Notes under the pieces: generated by a model
Seen by the model: the letters and a program-made list of their open reading frames with translations, nothing else
Database searches by the model: none
Told to the model about the DNA's origin: nothing
Translations under genes and position numbers: made by a program
From: a virus
DNA length: 40,355 nt
Reading direction: 5' to 3' (one strand)
Virus record (IMG/VR): IMGVR_UViG_3300031576_000147
Span: 1 to 40,355 of that record
In this document: piece after piece, positions 1 to 40,355 of the stretch
Numbering within the stretch: the stretch's first letter is position 1
Layout of the letters: each line of letters opens with the position of its first letter

Positions 1-320
1 GGCGGCGGACCCGGCGGCCTCGCCGGCCTCGGCGGCGGCCCGAGCGGCCCAGGCGGCCCAGGCGACGGACCCGGCGAGCTCGCCGGCCTCGGCGGCCCCA
101 GCGGCGGCCCAGGCGGCCCGAGCGGCCCAGGCGGCCCGAGCAGCGGCCTCGGCGGCCGCGGCGGCCCGAGCGGCCCAGGCGGAGGACCCGGCGGCCCCGC
201 CGGCCTCGGCGGCGGCCGCGGCGGCCGCGGCGGCCCGAGCGGCCCAGGCGGCGGACCCGGCGACCTCGCCGGCCTCGGCAGTGGCCGCGGCGGCCCGAGC
301 GGCCCAGGCGGCGGCTACGT
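1..320. repeat. Degenerate tandem repeats in the Ala/Trp/Arg gene (left end)
   Basis: GC-only DNA made of interleaved short units, such as ggcggcccgagcggcccagg, ggacccggcg and gccggcctcggcgg, encodes AAWAARAA and AEAGE.AGS on the minus strand. Positions 21-146 are identical to 40230-40355. Immediately before that, 1-20 do not match 40210-40229, and the right end appears to have an extra 39-bp unit. The assembly therefore probably broke in, or varies across, this repeat. Confidence 0.85.
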
Positions 321-3408: not shown

Positions 3409-3581
3409 GCCATGGAGTCGAATCGGTGGACTTGAAGGACCTCCGATATCATGGGTTGCGCGTCTTTAGTTCCCGGGGCCCGACGGCAAGCCGACCGACG
3501 TTAGCCCTAGTCCCCGAAACGTCCGCTCGCCCGATTGCCCCGGCACACACCCCCGTCGTACAACGTGGCGGGGGTGACGCG
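3409..3581. other. Non-coding leader between regulator and integrase; possible attP area
   Basis: An open frame continues upstream of the integrase through this segment, but the encoded residues do not look like a recombinase N-terminus, and the good ATG with a purine-rich site is at 3582. Phage attachment sites often lie beside the integrase, so this interval or 4389-4441 are the first places to look. No tRNA-like core could be recognised with confidence. Confidence 0.3.
3548..3576 (+). promoter_or_regulatory. Hairpin that can hide the integrase ribosome-binding site
   Basis: CACCCCCG (3548-3555) pairs perfectly with CGGGGGTG (3569-3576). The 3' arm holds the G-rich Shine-Dalgarno-like sequence that ends 5 bases before the integrase ATG. 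In mRNA this would block ribosome access unless melted or bound. Confidence 0.5.
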
Positions 3582-4388
3582 ATGGGTGACACGGTGGCGC
3601 TGCTCGCCGAGTACAGGACGTGGCTGGCGGCCAGCTATGCTGCGCGGACGGTAGAGGGCTACGAGGGCACCATCTGGCGGTTCCTGCGCGCCACCGGGAA
3701 GCCCGCCGCTGAGATCACCGAAGCCGACGTTGCGAGCTACATCGAGCGCTATCCCTACCGCTCGGCCGCGAGACGCACCTACTACCAGGGACTCAAGACC
3801 TTCTACGACTGGGCGGCCCGCTCCGGGCACGTCTCATCCAACCCGGTCACAGGCATCCGGGCACCGTCGGTCGCGATGAAGGAACCCTCCGCGCTGTCGG
3901 CCAAAGAGCTGGCCGCCGTGTTGACGGCAGCCGCCCGGCGGTCATCCGTTCGCGCCGCGGCGCTGTCGTTCTTGTACTTCTCCGGCGCGAGGCTCGACGA
4001 GATGCTCCACGTCACCTGGGCCGACATCGGCGAACAGGGGGTACTGCTCCGCAAGACCAAGACCGGCAAGGAGCGCCGGATCCCGTGGTCCGACGGGCTC
4101 CGGCAAGCCACGGGAACGCTCCGAGACCACTTCGGCGATCACGAACGGATGCTCCCACGCTCGCACCAGACGGTGTGGTCGTGGGCAAAGACGGCCGGCG
4201 AGGAGGCTGGCGTGGCGCAGCGGGTCCACCCGCATCTGTTCCGGTCGACGGCCGCGACGACGATGCTCCGAGGCGGGGCCAGGGTCCATGCCGTGCGAAG
4301 CGTCCTCGGTCACGACAACATCCGCACCACGAGCCGCTACCTCGCCGACGACGAGGTGGACCGTGAGCAAGCGGTGGCGGTCCTGTAG
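3582..4388 (+). CDS. int: Tyrosine site-specific recombinase (phage integrase), 268 aa
   Basis: Integrates and helps excise the phage DNA. An N-terminal SAM-like core-binding domain (residues 5-85, LAEYRTWLAASYAARTVEGY) is followed by a C-terminal catalytic domain. The active-site set is visible: Arg137 in SGARLDE, Lys in KTKTGKERRIP (160-163), His218-x-x-Arg221 in HPHLFRS, His244 in LGHDNIRTT and the nucleophile Tyr253 in SRYL. It lacks the Arm-binding N-terminal domain of long integrases and so resembles short XerC/D-like phage integrases. It follows the HTH gene on the same strand, and its start lies under a hairpin. Confidence 0.95.
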   Translation: MGDTVALLAEYRTWLAASYAARTVEGYEGTIWRFLRATGKPAAEITEADVASYIERYPYRSAARRTYYQGLKTFYDWAARSGHVSSNPVTGIRAPSVAMKEPSALSAKELAAVLTAAARRSSVRAAALSFLYFSGARLDEMLHVTWADIGEQGVLLRKTKTGKERRIPWSDGLRQATGTLRDHFGDHERMLPRSHQTVWSWAKTAGEEAGVAQRVHPHLFRSTAATTMLRGGARVHAVRSVLGHDNIRTTSRYLADDEVDREQAVAVL

Positions 4389-5223: not shown

Positions 5224-6486
5224 TCAGGTATTCGAGCCGCAGGTGATGCCGGCGAGCGAGCAGTTCAGCAGGCGGTCGCCGCCGAGGACGTTCCCCTCGA
5301 CCAAGATGTTGAACGGCACGTCATAGCCCACGCAGCACCCGGGCCCGTTCTGCTCCTTCGTCCCGCCCTCGGGTCGGCCATCGTCGCGGAAGTTGATCCC
5401 GGCCACCATGTTGCCGCCGAGTCGGTTGCCGCGGATGACGCAGGCCGTGGAGGCCGCAGGGCACGAGCTGTTCGTGGTGATCCCACCACCCGGCGACCCC
5501 GCCCCTTGCGGCCCGTAGGTCCCGTCGGGCAGGGCGCAAGCGGGACGCGGGTCAGGCCAGTAGGTCGGGGCGCAGTTGTTGAACATCACCGTGTTGTCGA
5601 GGACGAGAGCCGGTCCGCGCGAGACCTCGAAGTGAATGCCCTTGCGTGTTTGACCCAGGACCTCGTTGCCCTCGATCGTGACGGCGTGGCACTCCAGATC
5701 GCACCAGATGCCGTTGCCGATGTTCCGCTCGACCCGGTTGCCCCTGATGACCACGTCGTGTCCGCGAGCCACCTTGATCGCGGCGGCGCCCTGGCCGACG
5801 AACGCCGTGTCCCCGTTGTCATGGATCGAGTTGCCCTCGATCAGCAACGGTCCTCCGTCTTCGAGGCCGCACCCGATGCCGTTCTCGCCGTTGTGGTCCA
5901 GCTCGTTGCCGAGCAGGCGAGCACCGCGCCAGCACACGATCGCTGCGTCACCGAATCCCGACACGCGCAGGCCCTGGATGGTGACGTTCACCGCGCCGAT
6001 GCCTGCGCCCGTCTTCAGCATGATTCCATCGAGCACCGCGCCGACGGCGAAGATGTGGGCGGGACCGACGAGCGACTGACCGGTCTTCGGCCGCAGCGGT
6101 GCGGAGATGCCGAAGCTGCCGGAAAGGCACAAGGTCGCACCCGTGGGTGCGGCGGTGATGGCAGCCTGGACGTTCGCGCCCGATGCGACAGCGATACCCA
6201 CGCACGGACCGGGCGAGGGCGGAGATGGCGAAGGTGACGGGCTGGGTGACGGCGGCGGGGTCGTGGTGGGTGGTGGTGGTGTCGGTGACAGCGAGGCCTC
6301 AAGCTCGGCGATCCGGGCCTGAAGCGCTGCGAGCTCGGCGTCGGTCGCGGAGCGTTCGGCCGCAAGCGCCCCGTCGGTCGCGGTGCGGGCGTCACCGACC
6401 GTCTCGGCGCCGCTGACCGCGACCACCACGGCGGTGAGCGCCACCGCGGCGGCGAGCGTCACGGCCATGAGCCTCGGCGCCGTCAT
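5224..6486 (-). CDS. Membrane-anchored or secreted parallel beta-helix protein, 420 aa
   Basis: The start is ATG 6486, an ATGA overlap with the holin candidate. An N-terminal hydrophobic segment (about residues 6-27) is followed by a short Glu/Ala coiled coil (about 40-65), a Pro/Thr/Ser linker (PTPPPPTTTPPPSPSPSPSP) and then some 320 residues of right-handed beta-helix repeats. Typical rungs are VTIQGLRVSG, ARLLGNELDHN, LLIEGNSIHDN, VVIRGNRVERN and VTIEGNEVLG. There are about ten cysteines, several paired by spacing, which suits an exported protein. This fold is shared by pectate lyases, alginate lyases and phage tailspikes. No catalytic set could be identified. Being last in the late operon after lysis genes, it could be a depolymerase, a spike or a surface protein. 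Confidence 0.7.
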   Translation of the reverse strand: MTAPRLMAVTLAAAVALTAVVVAVSGAETVGDARTATDGALAAERSATDAELAALQARIAELEASLSPTPPPPTTTPPPSPSPSPSPSPPSPGPCVGIAVASGANVQAAITAAPTGATLCLSGSFGISAPLRPKTGQSLVGPAHIFAVGAVLDGIMLKTGAGIGAVNVTIQGLRVSGFGDAAIVCWRGARLLGNELDHNGENGIGCGLEDGGPLLIEGNSIHDNGDTAFVGQGAAAIKVARGHDVVIRGNRVERNIGNGIWCDLECHAVTIEGNEVLGQTRKGIHFEVSRGPALVLDNTVMFNNCAPTYWPDPRPACALPDGTYGPQGAGSPGGGITTNSSCPAASTACVIRGNRLGGNMVAGINFRDDGRPEGGTKEQNGPGCCVGYDVPFNILVEGNVLGGDRLLNCSLAGITCGSNT

Positions 6487-6710
6487 GGCGCCGCGGCCCA
6501 CACGAGCGCGCGGTTGATCACGACGTTGAGAGCCGCGACGCCGGCGGCGAGCGCCGCGGAGGTCTCCGGACCGAGGTCGATGTCGAGGAGCTGCTCTGCG
6601 CCGACGAGACCGAGGAACGTGGAGACCCCCACCTTCGCGGCCCAGATGAGCGTTTGCGTCCAGCTCGCGGGCGCGATCGTGCTTGCCACGGTGCGGACCT
6701 GATCGATCAT
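6483..6710 (-). CDS. Holin candidate, 75 aa
   Basis: A small protein with two hydrophobic segments (about residues 22-42, IWAAKVGVSTFLGLVGAEQL, and 50-72, SAALAAGVAALNVVINRALV) separated by an acidic turn (DIDLGPE). This fits class II actinophage holins, which let endolysin cross the membrane. It sits three genes after the M15-type peptidase, in an ATGA-coupled series. Holin function is inferred from topology and position, not from a specific family match. Confidence 0.65.
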   Translation of the reverse strand: MIDQVRTVASTIAPASWTQTLIWAAKVGVSTFLGLVGAEQLLDIDLGPETSAALAAGVAALNVVINRALVWAAAP

Positions 6711-7114
6711 GGCTGATCCTCCTTGGGTAGCCGAGCCTTCAGCTCGATGAAGTCGTTGATGAGCGGAGCGACCTCCTCGAGGTGGGTGCGCAGGTCGCGC
6801 CGCACCTCGTCGACGCCCTCGCCCTGGGCGATGAGCTGCGCCTCGATCGTCTCATTGTGCCGACGGATGCCCGACAGCTCGCGCCCTTGAGCGTCGATGC
6901 GCTTGGAGACGTCGTGGACCTGGCCTGCAACCACCTCGAGGAGACGGCCCTGCGCCTCGACCTGCTGAGTCGTTTGGACCCCGTTGGTCGGGCGGAGCTG
7001 GCGTGAGGCGTCGCTCGCTTCCCTGCGAGCGCCGCGGGCATAAAGCGTCGAGACGACGGTGCCCGCGAACACGAGCACGGAGCCGACCACCGCGACGATG
7101 CCCGCCTCGCTCAC
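6707..7114 (-). CDS. Single-pass membrane protein with coiled coil, DUF2746-like, 135 aa
   Basis: The start was chosen at GTG 7114, which overlaps the stop of the peptidase gene (GTGA). The longer frame from 7177 adds a basic, unlikely N-terminus. Residues 5-24 (GIVAVVGSVLVFAGTVVSTL) form a transmembrane helix, followed by a basic region and about 90 residues with coiled-coil heptads (EAQGRLLEVVAGQVHDVSKR and DEVRRDLRTHLEEVAPL). Membrane-plus-coiled-coil proteins of this shape, such as DUF2746, occur next to lysis genes of mycobacteriophages. It may be a second holin, a pinholin partner or a spanin-like protein. Confidence 0.65.
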   Translation of the reverse strand: MSEAGIVAVVGSVLVFAGTVVSTLYARGARREASDASRQLRPTNGVQTTQQVEAQGRLLEVVAGQVHDVSKRIDAQGRELSGIRRHNETIEAQLIAQGEGVDEVRRDLRTHLEEVAPLINDFIELKARLPKEDQP

Positions 7115-7860
7115 CTGTTCCCTCCGGCGCACGGCGGCACCCCGGTGTGCCACGCGCACGTGATGTGGACGTGCCATAGGTGCGTTCCCACCGCCGGCGT
7201 GTCGTCGTAGGGCCCGAGGCGCCAGCCGGGGGGGGCGGCCACGACCTCGGCACCGGCGAGCGAGCCGATCACCTGCACCGCGGGCATCAGGTCTTCGCGG
7301 GCCATGCGCACCGACCAGTCGGTGACATCGTCGTTGGCGACGCCCGCGGCCGGGTTCTCGGTCTCATCCGTCGCGTCACCCCATGCGTGCATCGACCACC
7401 CCCGGCCGCCGATGACGGGTGCCCCGGGGACCGAGCCGTACTGTTTGCAGGCGAACGCCCCGGCGTGGCGGACGCTCGGGAACCGGTGGTGCACGAGCGC
7501 CGAGCAGACCTCGGCACGTGCGGTGGCACCGGGAAGGTCAACCACCTTGACTTCTTCGGCGCGCACGGCAACGTCGATAGGAGACCCGCTCGGTGCCGCG
7601 AGCTGGAGCAGCTGGCCACCATCGAGCGAGACCAGCAACGAGGGGAGCTCCTCGAGGAGCTCGGCGCGCACCGCCACGCGCCAGTCGCTCCATGCCCCCG
7701 GCCCCCGGCGCTTGCGGACGGCGAGGCGTCCCGCGCGCGGGAGCAGCTCCGTGACCTGGACCACGGCGCTCGCACGTGTACGCAGGAGATCTGGCCCCGG
7801 AACGTCCCAGGGCTTCTGTGGCATGCGGACCTGGTAGCGGCGCAGGGTGCGCTCACCCAC
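7111..7860 (-). CDS. M15-like zinc peptidase, endolysin candidate, 249 aa
   Basis: Probably cleaves peptidoglycan cross-links (D-Ala-D-Ala or L-Ala-D-Glu type) at lysis. The motif SMHAWGDATD (156-165) fits the S-x-H-x2-G-x-A-x-D zinc signature of M15 peptidases, supplying His158 and Asp165. The downstream W-x-H motif, HLWHVHI (227-233), supplies the third ligand. Residues 1-110 are not part of the catalytic fold and could be a cell-wall or structural domain. The start at GTG 7860 is uncertain; ATG at residue 13 is an alternative. It lies between the minor tail genes and the membrane proteins of the presumed lysis cassette. A tail-associated hydrolase is a less likely alternative. Confidence 0.75.
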   Translation of the reverse strand: MGERTLRRYQVRMPQKPWDVPGPDLLRTRASAVVQVTELLPRAGRLAVRKRRGPGAWSDWRVAVRAELLEELPSLLVSLDGGQLLQLAAPSGSPIDVAVRAEEVKVVDLPGATARAEVCSALVHHRFPSVRHAGAFACKQYGSVPGAPVIGGRGWSMHAWGDATDETENPAAGVANDDVTDWSVRMAREDLMPAVQVIGSLAGAEVVAAPPGWRLGPYDDTPAVGTHLWHVHITCAWHTGVPPCAGGNR

Positions 7861-7904
7861 CTCTCGACGGCTCGGGGTTGTGAACGGCGGAACGGACGGA
7901 TCGG

Positions 7905-8147
7905 CTAAGGGGGGGTTGCCCAGACGATCCCGATGCCTCGCACCTGGACCCCGAGCTGCACGTCACCCGTGCACTCGAGTGACCAGCCGTCGCCGGCGAC
8001 GGCCTCGGTGACGTGGGTGTAGCCCTCGACCCGTCTCGCGTTGACCTCGTCGCCGCGCCGGAGCTCCACCGTGCCCTCCCCGGTCGCGACGAGCCCGGTG
8101 ACGGGGGCACCCGGTGCGATCTCGGCGTAGAGATCGGCGACGTTCAT
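7905..8147 (-). CDS. Small hypothetical late protein, 80 aa
   Basis: The ATG overlaps the upstream stop (ATGA). The protein is beta-rich (GEGTVELRRGDEVNARRVEG, then WSLECTGDVQLGVQVRGIGI) and acidic, with no hydrophobic segment. Position between tail proteins and the peptidase suggests a small structural component. No family was recognised. Confidence 0.6.
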   Translation of the reverse strand: MNVADLYAEIAPGAPVTGLVATGEGTVELRRGDEVNARRVEGYTHVTEAVAGDGWSLECTGDVQLGVQVRGIGIVWATPP

Positions 8148-32938: not shown

Positions 32939-33364
32939 TCACCACGGGCGATCCCGCGCCGGCTCACGATGCAGCCCGAGTGTGACCGCCTGCCCATCAG
33001 CCCAGGAGTCGACGTCGGCTCGCCGGTACCGAGTGTGCCGCCCGATCCTGAGATATCGCGGGCCCTGGTCCTTGCTGGCCCAGACGGCCAGGGTCTTCGC
33101 TGGAACGTTCAGGTAGGCGGCGACCTCAACGCGGCTTAGAAGGCGATCGGCCGGTCCTGGTACCGCTGCGAGATCCGATGCTTCGATCTTGGCGGTCACT
33201 GCGGGTGTCACCGTCGACGCTGGGCGCGGTTTCGGCGCCGGGTCGCCCGTCGCCTTCTTCGAGCGCCCATGGCCCCGCGCCAGATGCACAGCCCGAGCGT
33301 GCACGCTCACGAAGCTGCGATCGCAGCCCTCGACCAGACACGGATACGTACCGGTACCTTCCAT
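32939..33364 (-). CDS. C2H2 zinc finger plus excisionase-type HTH protein, 141 aa
   Basis: ATG 33364 follows a very good ribosome site (AGGAGGA, 7 bases upstream). Residues 9-32 form a C-x4-C-x12-H-x4-H zinc finger (C9, C14, H27, H32), then a Pro-rich linker (PAPKPRPASTVTPAV), then an excisionase/MerR-like HTH_17 domain at 76-122 (LLSRVEVAAYLNVPAKTLAV, YLRIGRHTRYRRADVDSWAD). It likely binds DNA and could be a regulator or recombination directionality factor. The open frame extends upstream without stop through more zinc-finger sequence, so the real start may be earlier if a frameshift is corrected. Confidence 0.75.
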   Translation of the reverse strand: MEGTGTYPCLVEGCDRSFVSVHARAVHLARGHGRSKKATGDPAPKPRPASTVTPAVTAKIEASDLAAVPGPADRLLSRVEVAAYLNVPAKTLAVWASKDQGPRYLRIGRHTRYRRADVDSWADGQAVTLGLHREPARDRPW

Positions 33365-33606
33365 GGTGGAGTCCTCCTGGCCACCCGGGCGGTGGCCCAT
33401 GTCTTCGTGCGCAGCACGCTTGGCGCTGGTCGCGAACGCCTCGTGGCACCCAGGCTGCCTGCACCGCCACGCGTTCCCGACGGTGCCCGGCTCGACCGCG
33501 TGGACGTCGATGACGTGTCTGCTAGGACGCGCGTCGACGCGAACTCCCGGTCGCAGTTCGGCATCACGCAGGGGTAGACCTCGCTCACCCCGGTCCCCAC
33601 AATCAT
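33365..33606 (-). pseudogene. Frameshifted upstream zinc-finger segment
   Basis: Starts at ATG 33606 (ATGA with the preceding ORF). The first frame reads YPCVMPNCDREFASTRVLAD, then shifts. In the frame of the downstream gene it continues HVIDVH, then WRCRQPGCHEAFATSAKRAA and HEDMGH. Adding one base near 33515-33521 (a single C in GCAGACACGTC) gives two more C-x4-C-x12-H-x4-H fingers with exactly the spacing of the third. It is either a recent one-base deletion or a sequence error, and the intact product would be a three-finger, HTH-containing protein. Confidence 0.6.
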
Positions 33607-33716
33607 GCCGCTCCCAGTCGCGTGTAGATGCGTATGGAGACCCCGGGCGCCTCTGCGAATGCCTTGTCGGCGACGACGCGGACGATCCTGCCGTCGTCGG
33701 CGAGGAGACCGCCCAT
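33603..33716 (-). CDS. Small ORF, 37 aa, possibly part of a frameshifted gene
   Basis: ATG 33716 encodes GGLLADDGRIVRVVADKAFA and more, ending in GAA; its stop overlaps the next ATG. An open frame starts at GTG 33799 (NVSTWPVLSGGMLLHELWVS, then GDPVAQS) just upstream in another frame. If one base were missing near 33720 the two would join into one protein of about 65 residues. Confidence 0.4.
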   Translation of the reverse strand: MGGLLADDGRIVRVVADKAFAEAPGVSIRIYTRLGAA

Positions 33717-33806
33717 GACTGCGCGACCGGGTCACCCGACACCCACAACTCGTGCAGCAGCATGCCGCCGGAAAGCACTGGCCACGTGCTGACGTTCACG
33801 GGTGAG

Positions 33807-34469
33807 TCATCCCTCCTCGAACGATAGGAGCGAGAACCGCCCCCAGCCCATCTTGCGCGACGCGCCGATCCCGACCCATTCGCCCGCGTACACCAGCGCC
33901 GAGCGGAGCACTTCCGGACGCACCATCTCGGGGTTCGGGTCGAGGGTGCCGCTCGCGAGTACCTTGTCCGTCGCGGGAACCTCGGCAGGCGGCTCCGCGC
34001 CGACGTAACGGTTGACCCGCAGACCGCGCTGGTTCGAGAGCTTCGCTCCGGTGCCCGCGGACACCACCGCGAACCGCCGCCATTCGAGCGCCGCTTCCGC
34101 AGAGATGTCCGTGGTCCAGCCCGACGCCCGAAGGACGGTCCTGACGAGATCGGGGGGACAGGGGCGCCCAGCGGCACGGATCGTGTCGCACGTCGCCACG
34201 AGCATCGCATCGACGTTCGCCTTCGGGATCACGACCCGGCCGTCGGGGTCTGTGTGGAACGGCCGCTCGGCGAGGCGGACGAGGTTGTCGTAGTCGCCCA
34301 GGGTCATGCTTATGGTCTTGAGATGTTCTTCCAGCGCTTTGCGGCGGTTGGCCGAGGACCGGGCACGGTTCATGCCCGACTCCTTCTGGATGTTGATCAG
34401 TTGCTCCATCTCCGGCCAGTAGGGGTGGGCGATGTAGGAGTGCAGGTGGATCTGTAGTTCGATGCTCAT
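33807..34469 (-). CDS. RAMP-like protein with glycine-rich loop, 220 aa
   Basis: ATG 34469 overlaps the upstream stop (TGATG). The protein has a beta-alpha-beta-like start (SIELQIHLHSYIAHPYWPEM) and a long central helical region. Near the end is the glycine-rich loop GIGASRKMGWGRF (201-212), which fits the G-x-G-x5-G-x-G loop of CRISPR RAMP proteins (Cas5/6/7-type). No other Cas gene or array is present. The family seems to occur alone in phages and prophages; the role is unknown. RNA binding is inference. Confidence 0.6.
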   Translation of the reverse strand: MSIELQIHLHSYIAHPYWPEMEQLINIQKESGMNRARSSANRRKALEEHLKTISMTLGDYDNLVRLAERPFHTDPDGRVVIPKANVDAMLVATCDTIRAAGRPCPPDLVRTVLRASGWTTDISAEAALEWRRFAVVSAGTGAKLSNQRGLRVNRYVGAEPPAEVPATDKVLASGTLDPNPEMVRPEVLRSALVYAGEWVGIGASRKMGWGRFSLLSFEEG

Positions 34470-39994: not shown

Positions 39995-40355
39995 GCTTCG
40001 GCCTCGATCAGCCGGTCGACGAGCCTGAGGGCTTCGTCCCAGGCCTCGGCGGCCCGAGCGGCGGCCTCGGCGGCCGCGGAGGACCCGGCGGCCCGAGCGG
40101 CCCAGGCGGCCCAGGCGGCCCAGGCGGAGGACCCGGCGGCCCGAGCGGCCCAGGCGGCCCAGGCGGCCCAGGCGGAGGACCCGGCGGCCCCGCCGGCCTC
40201 GGCGGCGGCCCGAGCGGCCCAGGCGGCCCCGCCGGCCTCGGCGGCGGCCCGAGCGGCCCAGGCGGCCCAGGCGACGGACCCGGCGAGCTCGCCGGCCTCG
40301 GCGGCCCCAGCGGCGGCCCAGGCGGCCCGAGCGGCCCAGGCGGCCCGAGCAGCGG
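39991..40355 (-). CDS. Trp/Ala/Arg-repeat phage protein, C-terminal part
   Basis: The 3' end of the gene that begins at 702. The repeat AAWAARAA and GSSAWAAWAAWAARAA continue, then the protein ends in AEAWDEALRLVDRLIEAEA. The stop overlaps the next start (ATGA). It joins the left part in frame only through the 126-bp identity. Confidence 0.75.
   Translation of the reverse strand, partial: AARAAWAARAAWAAAGAAEAGELAGSVAWAAWAARAAAEAGGAAWAARAAAEAGGAAGSSAWAAWAAWAARAAGSSAWAAWAAWAARAAGSSAAAEAAARAAEAWDEALRLVDRLIEAEA
40041..40355. repeat. Degenerate tandem repeats in the Ala/Trp/Arg gene (right end)
   Basis: The same GC-only repeat type as at the left end; 40230-40355 equal 21-146. Two nearly identical blocks encoding GSSAWAAWAAWAARAA lie between about 40080 and 40180. 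Confidence 0.85.

Follow-up and report, generated by a model that had tools for sequence, protein, structure and literature searches.

A phage gene for a C2H2-type zinc-finger array and an HTH domain, divided between two frames

RESULTS

The locus and its source record

The window, i.e. the whole stretch of DNA analyzed here, is a complete IMG/VR record (IMGVR_UViG_3300031576_000147; 40,355 bases, GC 68%). On its minus strand it carries a gene with C2H2-type zinc fingers and an HTH_17 domain, preceded directly by a remnant of a RusA gene and, further upstream, by a RAMP gene with an array of hexamer repeats. The features of this neighborhood are as follows, in the direction of reading.

34635-34487, minus strand: CGCCNN array of 25 units, just upstream of the RAMP gene
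33807-34469, minus strand: RAMP gene with a predicted Cas7 fold (AlphaFold and structure match), 0.2 kb upstream of the finger gene
33603-33716, minus strand: C-terminal fragment of RusA, with coding signal above it in another frame
33604-33606, minus strand: ATG start of the frame-0 part (MIVGTGVSEVYPC...), from the ORF reading; it overlaps the stop of the RusA-like remnant as ATGA
33307-33606, minus strand: frame-0 ORF as recorded; after the break it has no finger and the coding signal is lost
33500-33570, minus strand: finger 1, a single base short of an unbroken frame; its C-x4-C pair belongs to frame 0, its H-x4-H pair to frame 1
33518-33540, no strand assigned: interval of the break if the Phe and the first His of finger 1 are both kept (ligand pattern and coding signal)
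33392-33463, minus strand: finger 2, C-x4-C-x12-H-x4-H, intact (ligand pattern)
33269-33340, minus strand: finger 3, C-x4-C-x12-H-x4-H, intact (ligand pattern and best stretch in Pfam)
33373-33378, minus strand: AGGAGG, Shine-Dalgarno-like, 8 bases ahead of an internal ATG
32939-33364, minus strand: ORF from the internal ATG at 33364, with finger 3 and the HTH domain, 141 aa (ORF reading)
32990-33139, minus strand: HTH_17 DNA-binding domain (MerR/BldC/excisionase-like), from Pfam, NCBIfam and PDB searches

PHROG matches on the minus strand include terminase, portal, protease, capsid, tape measure, minor tail, DnaB-like helicase and replication initiator genes, and a tyrosine integrase lies at 3426-4388 on the plus strand (PHROG/profile matches); the window was therefore read as a temperate tailed phage. 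Judging by its base composition and by the organisms to which weak matches point, it probably infects an actinobacterium. Both ends of the window (1-312 and 40047-40355) consist of GGC-rich repeats. A copy of the final 126 bases stands at position 21, which would fit a circular record or one with terminal repeats.

The RusA fragment was recognized in a 37-residue ORF (Pfam E-value 0.011) and in a 42-residue open frame (PHROG E-value 5.9e-4); the N-terminal part of the resolvase was not found for this fragment. A promoter scan gave no promoter, and a terminator-like site is absent at the finger gene.

A finger array divided between two frames

Read on the minus strand from the ATG at 33606, frame 0 gives MIVGTGVSEVYPCVMPNCDREFASTR..., the front half of finger 1 with its C-x4-C pair and Phe. 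Frame 1 of the same strand (codons that start at positions p for which p mod 3 = 1) gives ...HVIDVHAVEPGTVGNAWRCRQPGCHEAFATSAKRAAHEDMGH...CLVEGCDRSFVSVHARAVHLARGH..., which supplies the H-x4-H pair of finger 1 and fingers 2 and 3; it continues into HTH_17 without a stop up to the one at 32941-32939. The division of the finger gene between two frames, observed earlier, is confirmed.

In the record, 35 bases separate Cys2 and His1 of finger 1 (pattern at 33570). On the two strands of the 40-kb record, this is the only place where the Cys/His pattern lacks a single base between Cys2 and His1; ∼0.03 occurrences would be expected per strand (from 400 first-order Markov sequences). The end of this pattern is 36 bases ahead of the first of the two intact C-x4-C-x12-H-x4-H copies, which start at 33463 and 33340 (∼0.02 expected per strand). 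The coding signal changes accordingly: ahead of the break, GC content at third codon positions amounts to 0.96 in frame 0, and behind it to 0.89 in frame 1; the frame favored by codon usage changes at the same place.

A preliminary description of this DNA had proposed that restoring one C near 33515-33521 would give finger 1 the spacing of its neighbors and fuse all three fingers to an HTH domain. The spacing across the break is indeed C-x4-C-x12-H-x4-H, as in fingers 2 and 3, and the fusion was borne out by frame 1, which runs unbroken from finger 1 H-x4-H into HTH_17. The site proved less definite than claimed: spacing alone permits any place between Cys2 and His1, and retention of the Phe and the first His narrows it to about 33540-33518 and not to 33515-33521. 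A scan of the whole record for frame breaks was not used for counts, as it marked ordinary gene overlaps as shifts and left the finger gene unflagged.

Resemblance of the fingers to the classical C2H2 type

Zinc fingers of this kind are common in animals and plants and scarce in bacteria. Each finger of the array comprises 24 residues from the first Cys to the last His, with a eukaryotic-like spacer of 12 residues; fingers 2 and 3 fit the ligand spacing C-x2-4-C-x12-H-x3-5-H as they stand, finger 1 only across the break. A sequence search of fingers 2-3 against PDB returned nine matches at E ≤ 1 (the best one, ZNF410, with E-value 6.7e-5), all of them C2H2 zinc-finger proteins.

At the protein level, the front half of finger 1 aligns with finger 3 with score 58 (none of 500 shuffles reached it; best shuffle 34) and with finger 2 with score 36 (again none of 500; best shuffle 28). 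Similarity of the DNA is at shuffle level for fingers 1 and 3 (389 of 500 shuffles reach the score) and for fingers 2 and 3 (441 of 500), and weak for fingers 1 and 2 (51 of 500). Being alike as protein and not as DNA, the fingers appear to be old copies whose silent sites have diverged, with both halves of the gene under protein-level constraint until recently.

Two observations count against a classical array. The gathering score of PF00096 is missed (17 versus 25.2 bits, with finger 3 as the best stretch), and Arg occupies in fingers 2 and 3 the position, three residues before the first His, where a classical C2H2 finger has Leu. An AlphaFold model of fingers 2-3 with the HTH domain, built from a single sequence, was uninformative (mean pLDDT 39.6). 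We describe the array as resembling the classical C2H2 zinc finger and do not claim Pfam membership; the fingers would be expected to bind zinc and DNA.

With classical C2H2 proteins (PF00096; ZNF410, TFIIIA, ZIC3, GLI) the phage array has in common the spacing, a Phe four residues after Cys2 and the tandem arrangement. It differs from them in the Pfam score, in the Arg for Leu in fingers 2 and 3, in the fusion to a bacterial HTH domain and in the linkers, which have 12 and 17 residues, whereas classical linkers are short and of the TGEKP type. The bacterial regulators Ros/MucR also have C2H2 ligands, described as a single motif with a 9-residue spacer in a larger fold (PMC9779718); the phage protein has three fingers, with spacers of 12 residues rather than the nine given for Ros. 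AFV1p06 of an archaeal virus is, like the phage array, a virus-encoded finger of eukaryotic type; it is described as a single finger in 59 residues, with Glu as the fourth ligand (PMC3541406), and an HTH domain is not mentioned in the part of that source consulted.

Homologues of the fused protein and rarity of finger arrays

Searches for homologues of the finger-HTH protein confirmed none of two candidate stretches in viral_contigs and none of 51 in genome_contigs. All matches among phages (10 records) and plasmids (4 records) were to the HTH part only, and fingers 2-3 alone gave nothing in phages at E-value 5. Thirteen virus records with related terminase, helicase or RAMP genes (5 + 8; L004 and L006 were left out of the terminase/helicase set of five) had no finger-HTH match at E-value 1. 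An HTH_17 scan of 16 other virus records with finger patterns gave no hit at the finger position, as judged by coordinates, and none of the papers listed by literature searches on C2H2 zinc fingers in phages dealt with a phage finger-HTH protein. The fused form was thus not seen intact in the collections searched, which counts against the reading that we prefer.

Arrays of C2H2 fingers had been called rare in bacterial viruses, and the counts agree: two pair patterns found three contigs in viral_contigs (2 + 1: L046, L047 with three fingers, and L064) and one pair pattern found none in genome_contigs (84,980 species). These patterns are strict, with several codons fixed, and undercount, so that the figures are lower bounds. 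Single fingers with spacing of the C-x4-C-x12-H-x4-H type are not rare in phage contigs: single-finger patterns gave 29 + 8 stretches, among which ∼13 distinct proteins with an open frame and a plausible finger were recognized by eye, the remaining stretches having short or odd frames or being copies of each other. A six-frame Pfam search for zf-C2H2 was discarded as evidence, since it missed the fingers of the window itself and matched 11 of 14 control genomes.

Two or three C2H2 fingers in one frame were seen in other phage proteins, at 6421-6615 of L047, 9372-9545 of L064 and 711-878 of L046. L047 (IMG/VR 2887729895_000001) resembles the window gene in that the fingers number three, with C2H2 spacing, and the virus contig is rich in GC (63%); its triple-finger ORF differs in being open in one frame and in lacking HTH_17, which lies ∼5 kb away.

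HTH domain and putative function

The HTH_17 domain scores above the Pfam cut-off (38.5 versus 27 bits) and matches the PHROG excisionase; its score for the excisionase family TIGR01764 is below the NCBIfam cut-off (23.7 versus 28.8 bits). The closest PDB matches are RdfS (8dgl), a recombination directionality factor (RDF), which is the best with E-value 9.2e-5, and the entries 6ama and 6amk, both annotated as putative DNA-binding proteins and presumably BldC. All three have an HTH like that of the window protein; the solved chains comprise only 71-91 residues and are not known to contain fingers.

In its unbroken form the gene would encode a phage DNA-binding protein in which three C2H2-type fingers precede an HTH_17 domain of the excisionase/RDF-BldC type. 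Its fingers would bind zinc and add DNA contacts, while the HTH domain suggests a recombination directionality factor or a regulator, in a temperate phage with a tyrosine integrase of its own. A recent loss of one base inside finger 1 would then prevent synthesis of the full-length protein. The gene downstream of the break need not be silent: the internal ATG at 33364, placed as it is behind a Shine-Dalgarno-like sequence, could still yield a product with finger 3 and the HTH domain if this putative start is used.

Cause of the break

Half of a finger in another frame than its partner is not expected to last, from which we infer that the break is either recent or not real. A three-finger C2H2-HTH DNA-binding protein of the phage, recently broken by a one-base loss in finger 1, is the best explanation that we can offer, and we give it an even chance of being right. 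The RusA fragment just upstream, with a frame change of its own, suggests local decay and argues for such a lesion.

The main competitor is an error of consensus or assembly, in which case the phage makes an intact three-finger HTH protein. Such an error would look identical to a lesion in the record. It would explain why neither half of the gene has decayed, coding character being kept before and after the break, and the second apparent one-base loss ∼190 bases upstream is what a locally poor consensus would give. On the other hand, the break interval has no homopolymer of four or more, and those structural and replication genes that could be named align with their families over long stretches, each in a single frame. 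We hold this explanation to be a serious possibility, albeit a less probable one, and favor the putative recent lesion.

It is very improbable that frame 1 alone constitutes the gene, with a start far upstream (e.g. GTG at 33799) and the front of finger 1 in frame 0 as a chance reading. Frame 1 does lack a stop between 33900 and 32941, but the best coding signal lies outside it at about 33705-33640 and about 33600-33525, and the frame-0 part both completes the metal-ligand pattern and scores higher against finger 3, as protein, than any of 500 shuffles.

A programmed −1 frameshift, one of the causes raised in the preliminary description, by which ribosomes would join the frames and make a short and a fused product, is the least probable cause: the offset has −1 sense and both frames are open through the region, but there is no in-frame X XXY YYZ heptamer in 33606-33307, no homopolymer of four or more at the break, no unusual structure in the downstream RNA (z = +0.48; 131 of 200 shuffles equally or more stable) and no early stop in the unshifted frame after the site. 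A second phage C2H2 gene (L036), whose finger and upstream half are likewise in different frames, may seem a parallel, but its linker differs from those of relatives by several indels and not by one base. The finger of L036 is C-terminal (1145-1216); in the relatives L032 and L016 a single frame covers both parts. With slippery heptamer, homopolymer and unusual downstream structure all absent, a real lesion or a sequence error is left.

A RAMP gene and hexamer repeats next to the finger gene

The gene at 34469-33807 has no Pfam or PHROG match and only weak Cmr6/Cas6 matches in PADLOC. Eight relatives with 34-65% identity were found in phage contigs (L048-L055) that have, within the stretches fetched, little else in common with the window. 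An AlphaFold model from the nine sequences (pLDDT 89.8) matches Cas7/Csm3 RAMP proteins; the best PDB match is a chain of a type VII CRISPR complex (E-value 8.8e-6), and the structural comparison gave Z 12.6 with 152 residues aligned and rmsd 4.5. A glycine-rich loop, G.GA.RKMGWGRF, is invariant in all nine sequences.

In the array of 25 units just upstream, each of the first four positions of CGCCNN is constant in 24 or all 25 of them, and the final two vary. CGYCNN period-6 or related arrays occur near the RAMP gene in all eight relatives, often on both sides; they are strong in L048, L049, L050, L052 and L055 and weak in L053 and L054.

In VIPR, a recently described RAMP system of phages, GGY/NN repeats with a period of 5 act as guides, and the preprint on it allows ‘a related consensus’ for the repeats (PMC13142463). 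The window locus is similar to it in having a RAMP-fold gene, with the glycine-rich loop by which VIPR is recognized, beside tandem repeats with two variable bases per unit; it differs in the repeat itself, which is CGYC/NN with period 6 instead of 5. As far as sequence and structure model go, the locus looks like a period-6 relative of phage VIPR systems.

The finger-HTH protein might then be an accessory (vap-like) DNA-binding factor of the RAMP/repeat-array system. Its gene lies on the strand of the RAMP gene, 0.2 kb downstream, and the accessory genes of VIPR types II, VI and VII are, according to the preprint, predicted DNA-binding proteins (PMC13142463). None of the eight records with a related RAMP gene has a finger-HTH match, so that the link between the fingers and the RAMP gene is only a lead; HTH_17 was found in three of these records, and in the two inspected the HTH_17 protein lacks fingers and is encoded ∼2.3 kb upstream of the RAMP gene. 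We regard such a role as unlikely, and the fuller proposal, that a three-finger C2H2-HTH protein serves as DNA-binding accessory factor of a phage-borne hexanucleotide-repeat relative of VIPR, as more doubtful still. L049 and L050 share, at about 5440-7960, a run upstream of the RAMP gene with an HTH_17 protein, two ParB-like genes (by eye) and small ORFs.

DISCUSSION

A paper of 2013 (PMC3541406) put the share of C2H2 fingers among bacterial genes at 0.003%. The finger-HTH architecture of the window gene is probably genuine and unusual: a tandem finger array joined to an HTH of bacterial recombination proteins and regulators is a domain combination that we did not meet in the homologue and HTH_17 searches. 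The neighboring RAMP gene and hexamer array may outweigh the finger gene in importance. If the accessory role were true, a eukaryotic-style finger array would work beside a minimal RNA-guided RAMP. The architecture bears on whether multi-finger reading of DNA arose outside eukaryotes and archaea.
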